A program made the position numbers and the translations under genes. A stretch of 40,495 bases of DNA from positions 1-40,495 of the IMG/VR virus record IMGVR_UViG_3300047510_000181. One strand, written 5' to 3'. The stretch is from a virus. This document shows, one piece after another, positions 183 to 8,941 of this stretch; position 1 is the first letter of the stretch, and each line of letters begins with the position of its first letter. The notes beneath the pieces were generated by a model, which did no database searches, was not told the DNA's origin, and saw nothing but the letters and a program-made list of their open reading frames with translations.

Positions 183-946
183 GTCTTCTGATTGATGCAG
201 ATTACATCGTCTACAAATGCTGTGCAGCAGCCGAAACTGAAATCGACTGGGGAGACGATGTTATCGTCGTCTCAAGTAGGTTTAGTGAAGCCTACGACAA
301 AGTACAGCGAGAGCTATTCAACATCGCAACAGATCTTGGATGCTTCGATGATTCTATTCTGTTTTTTACTGATAGCGTCAACTTTCGTAAACGTATTGAC
401 CCAGCGTATAAAGGACATAGAAACAGAAAGAAACCGTGTGGTTACCGCCGGGTCATCAACAAACTCAAGGAGGAATACAACGTTGTTGTAATGCCTGAGT
501 TAGAAGCTGACGATGCTCTTGGCATCTACGCTACTAAAGAACCAGGACACATCATTTGTAGTCCTGACAAAGATATGCGACAGATACCTGGAGACCTTTA
601 TGATTTATCTGATGGCGTTGTCACAATCACCAAAGAAGAAGGTGAACGTTGGCACTACATTCAAACGCTGGCTGGCGACCAAACTGATGGATACAGCGGT
701 GTACCTAGCTTCGGGATCAAACGAGCTGTTACCTTCTTTGAAGAGAACGGGTACAGCTGGGAGTCCGTGGTCAAGGCGTTTGCCAGTAAGGATCTTGATG
801 AGTCCGTCGCCCTCCAAAACGCAAGGCTCGCAAAGATCCTTCAGCATACCGATTATGACTTCACCAACCAATGCGTCAAACTTTGGACCCCCTGCCCCGA
901 TAGTCGAACTGACGATGGAGCAGCAGTTCAAAATGCGTCAGATTGA
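179..946 (+). CDS. T7 gp6-like 5'-3' exonuclease (FEN family)
   Basis: This 255-residue protein has the acidic metal-binding motifs of the FEN/5'-3' exonuclease fold in order: LIDADYIVY at the N-terminus, ELEADDALGIYA near residue 108, SPDKDMRQIPG near 128, then the helix-hairpin-helix-like AGDQTDGYSGVPSFGIKRA near 166. In T7, gp6 degrades host DNA to nucleotides and removes RNA primers during replication. The position before the nucleotide-metabolism genes fits recycling of host DNA. The start overlaps the upstream small gene by 4 nt. The last 31 codons overlap the NblA-like gene in another frame, and the tail after KLWTP looks like a non-domain extension created by that overlap. Confidence 0.9.
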   Translation: MSLLIDADYIVYKCCAAAETEIDWGDDVIVVSSRFSEAYDKVQRELFNIATDLGCFDDSILFFTDSVNFRKRIDPAYKGHRNRKKPCGYRRVINKLKEEYNVVVMPELEADDALGIYATKEPGHIICSPDKDMRQIPGDLYDLSDGVVTITKEEGERWHYIQTLAGDQTDGYSGVPSFGIKRAVTFFEENGYSWESVVKAFASKDLDESVALQNARLAKILQHTDYDFTNQCVKLWTPCPDSRTDDGAAVQNASD

Positions 947-1142
947 AGACGCACTTAGACACCCTGATTCACCTAAGGAGGACATTATCACCGTCTTCCT
1001 AGCACTTCAGAAGCAGTGCTTCATCCTTGGTAATTCACTCACTAACCTCGTAAAAAATTGGCCGAAACCAACTCAACTGGACCCCAGTACTATCGAAGAG
1101 GTTCTATCCAAGTTTGGGATTTCATCCGAGACCAAGGACTAA
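855..1142 (+). CDS. nblA: NblA-like phycobilisome degradation adaptor
   Basis: The 95-residue product contains VELTMEQQFKMRQIEDAL, followed after about 15 residues by FLALQKQ and then LTNLVKNW. This matches the NblA plan: ELSxEQxFxLRxxE in helix 1, FLVELYRQMM in helix 2 and a terminal LxK-W. NblA tethers phycobiliproteins to the Clp protease so that phycobilisomes are dismantled. Viral nblA genes are known from freshwater cyanomyoviruses and from uncultured marine cyanophages. I chose ATG 855 rather than ATG 915 because the conserved P-I-E-L segment lies upstream of 915; neither start has a clear Shine-Dalgarno sequence. The gene overlaps the exonuclease by 92 nt. About 25 residues after the conserved Trp extend beyond a usual NblA. 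The call rests on motif recognition only. Confidence 0.62.
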   Translation: MTSPTNASNFGPPAPIVELTMEQQFKMRQIEDALRHPDSPKEDIITVFLALQKQCFILGNSLTNLVKNWPKPTQLDPSTIEEVLSKFGISSETKD

Positions 1143-3028: not shown

Positions 3029-3406
3029 ATGACTAATGAACAGGCTCTCTTCTGGTTCGCCGGACTTTATGAAGGAGAGGGTAGCGTTCAAGGCCGACAC
3101 TACCAAAATAAAACAAACGGCCGTTACTACTTTTCGTTGTCCCTCCGAATTGATAGTACCGATGAAGATACGCTTATTACCATAAAAAAACATTTTGGGG
3201 GTAAGATAAATCCTCGTCGCAAGTTACTACAAAATCGTAAACCAATATGGATTTGGCAGCTTGCACGGAAGGACGAAGTAATCGCATTAGTGGAACAGAT
3301 TATTCCATATATGTCAAAGCGTCGGCAAGCTCAGCTTACTGATGCTATTACACGTTGCAAAGATTATTACGCAAGCAAAGATGAACCCCTATCAGAAATT
3401 ACTTGA
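3029..3406 (+). CDS. Free-standing LAGLIDADG homing endonuclease
   Basis: The 125-residue protein has one LAGLIDADG motif at the N-terminus, FAGLYEGEGSV, with a catalytic acid at the usual position. It then shows the family pattern of beta strands and a closing helix (YFSLSLRIDSTDEDTLITIKKHFGG, WQLARKDEVIALVEQI, KRRQAQL). One motif per chain implies a homodimer that makes a double-strand break at a long target. It lies between the RNR alpha and beta genes, four bases after nrdA, and overlaps the nrdB start by 26 nt. The gene is visibly more AT-rich than its neighbours (AAAAAAAC, TTTTGGGGG tracts), which fits recent invasion. Other phages also carry homing endonucleases next to RNR genes. Confidence 0.82.
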   Translation: MTNEQALFWFAGLYEGEGSVQGRHYQNKTNGRYYFSLSLRIDSTDEDTLITIKKHFGGKINPRRKLLQNRKPIWIWQLARKDEVIALVEQIIPYMSKRRQAQLTDAITRCKDYYASKDEPLSEIT

Positions 3407-6191: not shown

Positions 6192-6977
6192 ATGTCAGAA
6201 ATTTTGAGTTACGATGCTACTCCTGATGCGGAAGTAATGTCGTCAATTGAATCCGACGAAGCTGAATCCCTAGCCATTGGCGAAGAGCTACTGGCTCAAC
6301 ATGAGGGTAGGCTGGCTGGTAAGTATAAAAATGCTGAGGAACTGGAACGAGCTTACATGGAGCTTGAAAAGAAACTTGGCAGTGGTAGTCGTGAGGAATC
6401 TGAAGAAGAGTCTTACGATGAATCCGAACCAGTTGAAGAAGAAAGTCGGGACTACAGCGACCTTTCTGAATTGTTCTCACTTGCGGGTGATGAGTACTCA
6501 GAAAAGGGGGAACTGAGTGCAGAGACGCTAGAAGCTTTTTCTCAAATGTCATCTCAAGATTTGGTACAAGCCTACTTTGAGATGCAAGCACAACAACCTT
6601 CCCAATCTGGTAGGGAGTTGAGCACTCAAGAAGTTAACCAACTTCAAAACATGGTAGGTGGTCAAGCCGCTTACAACCAGTTGACCAGTTGGGCAGCTGA
6701 GAATTTTAGCGAAGGGGAAATTGAAGCTTTTGATTCTCTCGTTGAATCAGGCAACACTAACGCTATTCAGCTTGCACTGCAAGCATTGTACTATCGCTAC
6801 ACAGATGCTATGGGAGTTGAAGGAGAAATGCTGAGCGGTAAACCTGCTCGCTCACAAGATACATTCCGTAGTCAAGCTGAGCTTGTACGTGCTATGGCTG
6901 ATCCTCGTTATGATCGTGACCCTGCATATCGTCAGGACGTGATTGAAAAACTGGAACGCTCTGACTTAGACTTTTAA
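6192..6977 (+). CDS. Capsid assembly scaffolding protein, T7 gp9-like
   Basis: The 261-residue protein is strongly acidic (EESEEESYDESEPVEEESRDYSD near residue 70-90) and starts with an AGKYKNAEELERAYMELEKKLG helix, the hallmark of T7-like scaffolds. The C-terminal half is helical and ends in a basic/acidic segment (ADPRYDRDPAYRQDVIEKLER) expected to contact capsid protein. Scaffolds direct procapsid assembly and leave before DNA packaging. It lies directly between the portal and the inserted photosynthesis cassette. Its stop overlaps the hli start by one base. Confidence 0.9.
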   Translation: MSEILSYDATPDAEVMSSIESDEAESLAIGEELLAQHEGRLAGKYKNAEELERAYMELEKKLGSGSREESEEESYDESEPVEEESRDYSDLSELFSLAGDEYSEKGELSAETLEAFSQMSSQDLVQAYFEMQAQQPSQSGRELSTQEVNQLQNMVGGQAAYNQLTSWAAENFSEGEIEAFDSLVESGNTNAIQLALQALYYRYTDAMGVEGEMLSGKPARSQDTFRSQAELVRAMADPRYDRDPAYRQDVIEKLERSDLDF

Positions 6978-7153
6978 TGAACGACACTAACATCTGGCCC
7001 ATCGAACCACCTCTTATTATGACTGATCATCCTTACGGTGTTCCCCACAATGAACGTGCTGAACAGCTCAATGGTCGCCTGGCTATGCTTGGCGTCATGG
7101 CTGCTTTGGGTGCTTACGCACTAACTGGACAAATTATTCCTGGTATTTGGTAA
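6977..7153 (+). CDS. hli: High-light-inducible protein (Hli, one-helix chlorophyll-binding)
   Basis: This 58-residue protein shows the Hli motif [31 protein letters not shown], with the ExxNGRxAMxG chlorophyll-binding Glu/Asn/Arg and a single membrane helix over residues about 36-54. Hli proteins bind chlorophyll and carotenoid in thylakoids and protect photosystem II or chlorophyll during stress. Phage copies are thought to keep photosynthesis running during infection. The gene overlaps the scaffold stop by one base (TAATG) and the next small gene by one base. It belongs with psbA about 0.7 kb downstream. Confidence 0.92.
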
Positions 7154-7556: not shown

Positions 7557-7853
7557 ATGATTCCTATTCTAACTACTCTGTCGGTGATCACCAGTTGGTA
7601 TGGTCCTGGCTTCCACGGAAACCTCACCGCTAACGGTGAACGATACAATCAAAACGGCCTTACTGCAGCGCACAAGACACTCCCCTTCGGTACTAAACTT
7701 AAAGTTTGTTATCGTGGGTGTGCCGTTGTTCGGGTCAATGATCGCGGTCCTTATCTCCATGGTAGGGGTTTAGATCTCAGTAAAGGTGCGGCTGATGCAA
7801 TCGGTCTCACTAACTCTGGAGTTGGAAGGGTCAAAGTAACCCGTCTTAACTAA
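7557..7853 (+). CDS. RlpA-like double-psi beta-barrel protein
   Basis: The 98-residue protein has the RlpA-like barrel pattern: [63 protein letters not shown]. The NDRGP and RGLDLS acidic residues match the catalytic site region of RlpA lytic transglycosylases. The first ten residues are hydrophobic ([11 protein letters not shown]), perhaps a short export or membrane segment, but no full signal peptide or SPOR domain is present. In a phage it could cut peptidoglycan during entry or lysis. It sits between the small-protein trio and psbA, away from the lysis genes at 27 kb. The fold assignment is firm; the role is inferred. Confidence 0.78.
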
Positions 7854-7861
7854 CTTCATTC

Positions 7862-8941
7862 ATGACTGCTATTCTCGCAGCTCCACGGTCTCAATCTTCT
7901 TGGGACCGTTTTTGTACTTGGGTAACCAGTACTAACAACCGTCTTTATGTCGGCTGGTTTGGGACACTGATGATTCCGTGTCTCCTTGCAGCCACCATTT
8001 GTTTTGTTCTTGCATTTGTTGCGGCTCCCCCTGTCGATATTGATGGCATCCGCGAGCCTGTATCTGGGTCTCTACTCTATGGAAACAACATCATATCGGG
8101 AGCCGTCATTCCGAGCAGCAATGCCATCGGACTACACTTCTACCCAATTTGGGAAGCTGGTTCACTTGATGAATGGCTCTACAACGGGGGTCCGTTCCAA
8201 CTCACAGTCTTCCACTTCCTCATTGGCATCTATGCTTACATGGGACGAGAGTGGGAACTTAGCTATCGATTAGGGATGAGGCCCTGGATCTTTGTCGCCT
8301 ATTCAGCTCCTGTTGCAGCAGCAACCGCAGTGTTCCTGGTCTATCCGTTTGGGCAGGGCTCGTTCTCTGACGCTATGCCTCTGGGTATCTCGGGAACCTT
8401 CAACTACATGCTGGTCTTCCAAGCTGAACACAATATCCTCATGCATCCTTTCCACATGTTGGGAGTTGCTGGTGTATTTGGGGGTAGCCTGTTTAGTGCT
8501 ATGCACGGTAGCCTTGTCACGTCTTCTCTTATCCGTGAAACCACTGAAGAAATCTCTCAGAACTATGGTTACAAGTTTGGGCAAGAAGAAGAAACTTACA
8601 ACATCGTAGCGGCACATGGCTACTTCGGGCGTCTTATCTTCCAGTATGCGAGCTTTAACAATAGCCGCAGCCTTCATTTTTTTCTGGCTGCTTGGCCTGT
8701 TGTTGGTATCTGGTTCGCTGCTCTTGGCGTGTCTACGATGGCATTTAATCTTAACGGCTTTAATTTTAACCAGTCCCTTATTGATAACCAGGGACATGTT
8801 GTGGATACTTGGGCAGACATTCTTAACAAAGCCAACCTCGGCTTTGAAGTCATGCACGAACGAAATGCACACAACTTCCCTCTGGACCTTGCTTCTGTTG
8901 AAACAACTCCAGTCGCCCTGGTGGCTCCCGCCATTGGATAA
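7862..8941 (+). CDS. psbA: Photosystem II D1 protein, intact
   Basis: The 359-residue D1 is full length. Functional residues are at canonical numbers: Tyr161 (YZ), Asp170, His190, His198, His215, Ser264, His272, His332, Glu333, His337, Asp342 and Ala344, the manganese-cluster ligand and processing site. The C-terminal extension after Ala344 is 15 residues. Residue 130 is Glu (YMGREWEL), the form associated with high-light D1 isoforms, rather than Gln. Phage D1 replaces the rapidly damaged host D1 so that photosystem II keeps working during infection. No intron or frameshift is present. It begins eight bases after the RlpA-like gene and lies upstream of the capsid gene, the usual location in cyanopodoviruses. 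Confidence 0.99.

Follow-up and report, generated by a model that had tools for sequence, protein, structure and literature searches.

Viral NblA proteins and the closest described systems

Host NblA has its ClpC-binding site near the N-terminus and its phycobiliprotein-binding site near the C-terminus, and it guides phycobilisomes to the Clp protease (PMC4103541; PMC7966870). For viruses, PMC9602691 relates that Nadel et al. (2019) found predicted nblA genes in 14 isolates of cyanopodoviruses, that the cyanopodovirus genes group apart from others in the published tree, and that expression of a marine viral nblA leads to phycobilin loss. The review PMC12892361, citing Nadel et al. (Nature 2025), states that many oceanic cyanophages encode an NblA which degrades the light-harvesting complexes of the host, and estimates up to 5% of photosynthetic light capture worldwide. 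That ocean viruses alter host light harvesting through NblA is documented, and the gene described here, which occupies positions 855-1142 (forward strand) of the window (the whole 40,495-nucleotide viral stretch analysed), is one more member. It opens with ATG at 855, closes with TAA at 1140-1142 and encodes a 95-residue protein related to PF04485 (NblA).

Same-locus orthologues of this gene were found in many named T7-like cyanophages. The nblA of S-TIP37 has the shared locus (from exonuclease to DUF3310/mazG), a start within the exonuclease gene and 56% identity over residues 1-70; it differs in ending 11 residues past the Trp, in reading LVTKW in place of LVKNW, and in scoring above the Pfam cut-off. 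The 2025 work of Nadel et al. was reportedly done with an engineered phage of the T7-like type, probably S-TIP37; consistent with this, the S-TIP37 genome has a single PF04485 match, namely the orthologue of the gene at 855-1142, at the corresponding locus. We infer that the present locus corresponds to the nblA genes of Nadel et al. (2019 and 2025), as far as these are described in PMC9602691 and PMC12892361.

The protein is also a member of the PHROGs cyanophage family phrog_27006 (E 2.7e-38, residues 21-95), which carries no functional name; the profile of this family begins at residue 21, which implies that its gene models miss the N-terminus. With host NblA (PF04485; PDB codes: 1ojh, 2q8v/2qdo, and 3cs5) it shares the ELTxEQQF opening of helix 1, the hairpin and the C-terminal L-x-K, with an identity of only about 22% when the profiles are aligned, whereas a proline-rich N-terminal stretch and a 26-residue overlap tail are additions of the phage protein. 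The NblA proteins of the freshwater cyanophages Ma-LMM01 and PaV-LD belong to the same protein family but are closer to host NblA, and the annotated nblA of PaV-LD was recovered with a host NblA query. The distribution given in the earlier note, namely freshwater cyanomyoviruses and some uncultured marine phages, has been superseded, given the 14 cyanopodovirus isolates predicted before, according to PMC9602691, and the many T7-like orthologues. The finding of an NblA in a T7-like cyanophage is thus correct in the main but, on the cited accounts, already known, and the practical gain from this gene is an annotation correction, which is modest.

Proposed role and the C-terminal binding motif

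It is very likely that the gene encodes a T7-like cyanophage NblA, that is, a helical-hairpin proteolysis adaptor that most likely sends phycobilisomes to degradation. This proposal draws on the family relation, the selection and the fold prediction obtained in the present analysis, while the biochemical steps follow the host and viral NblA literature. The phage NblA would be made during infection, most likely as a dimer, and would bind phycobiliproteins and pass them to the host ClpC-ClpP protease; alternatively, it may loosen the antenna rods by mimicry. Degradation of the phycobilisome would free amino acids for phage synthesis and lower light harvesting, and the phage D1 and high-light-inducible proteins may meanwhile keep photosystem II running. 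A T7-like phage carrying both psbA and hli had been claimed before, and both genes are present on the forward strand: psbA at 7862-8941 (PF00124, 296 bits) and hli at 6977-7153 (PF00504, 18-21 bits, which is below the cut-off, with an NGRLAMLG motif). Between the two lies an open reading frame for an RlpA-like double-psi beta-barrel protein (7557-7853; PF03330, 81 bits).

In Nostoc NblA, L51 and K53 form the C-terminal Leu-x-Lys implicated in phycobiliprotein binding. The 95-residue protein has L65-V-K67 at this place; within the aligned set the Leu is invariant, while 97 of the 125 distinct relatives have the Lys, and the loss of the Lys53 equivalent in about a fifth of the relatives counts against the NblA function. 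The terminal Trp demands a different reading. In all 125 distinct relatives the TGG codon of Trp69 contains the NTG with which the downstream gene starts, and the base preceding TG is never C (87 ATG, 36 TTG, and 2 GTG starts), hence the invariance of Trp69 cannot be put down solely to phycobiliprotein binding. Of the terminal LxK-W that had been taken as the phycobiliprotein-binding signature, the LxK stands, while Trp69 is confounded by the start codon and Lys67 is not conserved throughout the family.

The best surviving alternative is that of an adaptor derived from NblA which retains both hairpin and protease link yet delivers other host proteins to Clp, phycobilisome loss not being its main job, especially in Prochlorococcus phages. 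Prochlorococcus hosts have no phycobilisomes, and the gene is nevertheless kept in the Prochlorococcus phages P-SSP7, NATL1A-7, and P-SSP3; on scanning, neither the P-SSP7 orthologue (2501-2812 of locus L002) nor that of NATL1A-7 (2501-2776 of locus L089) matched PF04485, and the variability of the Lys of LxK among relatives points the same way. For the protein studied here we nonetheless regard a changed target as unlikely: its nearest named relatives are from Synechococcus phages, the hosts of which have phycobilisomes, it retains the LxK itself, and published viral NblA acts on phycobilisomes, as reported in PMC9602691 and PMC12892361. Either a wide host range or a changed target could account for the persistence of nblA in Prochlorococcus phages.

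Family membership and predicted fold

The NblA family was the top Pfam match of the 95-residue protein (PF04485; E 1.9e-4, 22.2 bits, residues 18-67), and the alignment spans positions 1-48 of the 50 in the profile, i.e., the whole domain. The NblA profile search that had been suggested as a check thus returned a significant match, the score of which lies just below the curated cut-off of 25 bits; scanned alone, the protein is below the NCBIfam cut-off as well. Among its relatives, 28 of 31 match PF04485 at E ≤ 1 (best E 9e-9), and three same-locus orthologues exceed the Pfam cut-off when scanned singly (S-TIP37 with 27.8 bits, L068 with 30.5 bits, and L082 with 36.1 bits). A weak second Pfam match, Tic110 (PF16940, residues 58-94), was rejected, as it is below the cut-off and falls mainly in the DUF3310 overlap.

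Comparison of profiles led to the same family. The phage family compared to the three crystallised host NblA proteins gave E 2.9e-6 with a probability of 88%, and a profile of these three host proteins ranked the nblA frame first among the 607 six-frame open reading frames of the window. When the phage-family profile was searched against the PDB, the top matches were 3cs5, 1ojh, and 2q8v, all weak (E 0.008, 0.26, and 0.84, respectively). A contig scan with a fragment of Synechococcus elongatus NblA returned two proteobacterial loci that were of no use.

The AlphaFold2 model of the core, built with 63 sequences, has a mean pLDDT of 90 and predicts helices at core residues 10-24 and 30-57 connected by a short loop; the full-length AlphaFold model agrees with this two-helix hairpin. 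On the basis of both models and of the codon-position constraint, the conserved NblA core was delimited to residues 12-69 (888-1061, forward strand), comprising PPxPIxELTMEQQF, helix 1 (residues 21-35), and helix 2 (residues 41-68). Foldseek searches with the full-length model against the PDB and BFVD, and with the core model against the PDB, retrieved no NblA structure but just unrelated helical proteins, and a second look at both models with VIA-align found no NblA chain; this outcome is uninformative, because a helical hairpin of 58 residues has little fold signal.

A convergent helical hairpin that resembles NblA and has a role unrelated to phycobilisomes would fit a short helical sequence with sub-threshold scores of its own and no NblA fold match by Foldseek. 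We consider such convergence highly improbable, since the match extends over the whole NblA domain, 28 of the 31 relatives match too and some of them exceed the cut-off, and the top PDB matches of the phage-family profile are NblA proteins. Moreover, the records with an nblA-like protein are exclusively those of cyanophages and marine uncultured phages, the one exception being a weak match by chance (E 0.8). The name NblA is thus borne out by the best Pfam match, by the three relatives above the cut-off, and by the two-helix hairpin, the helices claimed from the sequence being present in the models. The earlier note had listed the lack of an NblA match, the lack of the two helices, and an interrupted frame in close relatives as grounds for abandoning this name; none of these clearly arose, although the frame is interrupted in one relative.

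Overlapping genes, start site and annotation

The nblA gene belongs to a run of four genes on the forward strand, each of which overlaps the next. Its initial 92 nt (855-946) lie inside a T7 gp6-like exonuclease gene (179-946; phrog_107), and its last 85 nt (1058-1142) are overlapped, in another frame, by a DUF3310 gene (1058-1357; PF11753; called “nucleotide kinase” in phage records), whose TTG start at 1058 overlaps the codon of Trp69; the DUF3310 gene is itself overlapped by a gene for a MazG-type nucleotide pyrophosphohydrolase (1239-1628; phrog_671). This leaves nblA with 111 of its 288 nt not shared with neighbouring genes. A promoter and terminator scan around nblA yielded nothing above chance.

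The order exonuclease-nblA-DUF3310-MazG-ribonucleotide reductase recurs in S-CBP1, S-CBP3, S-CBP4, S-SBP1, S-B28, KBS-P-1A, and NATL1A-7. A GNAIKY-type DUF3310 motif was found in the frame that starts from the NTG at Trp69 in 111 of the 122 relatives examined, and nine of the remaining 11 are one residue off the exact motif, so that just L082 and S-RIP1 have no DUF3310 at this NTG; in S-RIP1 an HNH endonuclease gene replaces it, beginning at the same codon. We tentatively suggest, and hold to be unlikely, that the overlapping chain, next to ribonucleotide reductase and with its coupled starts, keeps the output of NblA in a fixed proportion to the nucleotide-metabolism enzymes and that the copies of Prochlorococcus phages have been retargeted. 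In the window, the ribonucleotide reductase gene is followed by a LAGLIDADG endonuclease open reading frame (3029-3406; PF00961, 27.2 bits) and this by an open reading frame of 251 amino acids, the two overlapping by 65 nt.

Of 90 related loci taken from IMG/VR and from isolate genomes, 89 have an uninterrupted nblA frame, and nearly all have the same start position, at which S-SBP1 has a Leu-type codon. S-RIP1 is the sole relative with a broken frame: its nblA is split mid-gene by a frameshift around 2380-2730 of locus L088, due to either a sequencing error or decay. Variability by codon position was measured on a reduced alignment of 95 sequences. Third positions of the exonuclease, which in the overlap are the second positions of the nblA frame, vary by 0.22 inside the overlap (855-946) compared to 0.54-0.57 outside it, and among 195 exonuclease-only windows of that size there is none with so low a value. 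In the nblA-only stretch (947-1057) the first, second, and third codon positions vary by 0.32, 0.17, and 0.59, respectively, which is the pattern of a translated, protein-coding gene. The frame at 855-1142 is therefore a real gene that is selected as a protein, and a chance open frame produced by the overlapping exonuclease and DUF3310 genes, a reading to which only the 111 unique nucleotides out of 288 lend some colour, has a negligible probability and is ruled out by the codon-position constraint in the exonuclease overlap and by the typical codon variation of the unique stretch, the start and the open frame being kept in nearly all relatives besides.

Constraint in the nblA frame begins ahead of Met21. 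Residues 12-20 (PPAPIVELT) are constrained (second positions 0.16) while residues 1-12 are not (second positions 0.44), which implies that translation must start upstream of Met21; the conserved ATG at 855 is the natural start. At the opposite end, the constraint on the 3′ overlap (1058-1142) follows DUF3310: the codon positions of the DUF3310 frame vary by 0.24, 0.16, and 0.40, and the second positions of nblA vary most. In some relatives the protein ends at Trp69 or one residue after it (L084 and L082). Together these observations indicate that the 26-residue tail beyond Trp69 is largely a by-product of the DUF3310 overlap. What had been described as an unusual 25-residue C-terminal extension is mostly the 5′ part of DUF3310 read in another frame, and shows no conservation as an NblA sequence.

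That the gene is easily missed because its start is inside the exonuclease gene was anticipated correctly: ATG 855 lies within that gene, and nblA is absent or shortened in GenBank records because its true N-terminus lies there. No gene is annotated at the nblA locus of S-TIP37, S-SBP1, and NATL1A-7, the models of S-CBP1, S-CBP3, and S-CBP4 are too short, as they start at or after residue 21, and nblA or DUF3310 is unannotated in several records that share the order exonuclease-nblA-DUF3310-MazG. Surveys based on annotated proteins or on the raw Pfam cut-off will underestimate the number of nblA genes in T7-like cyanophages. The P-SSP7 copy is annotated from the correct start.
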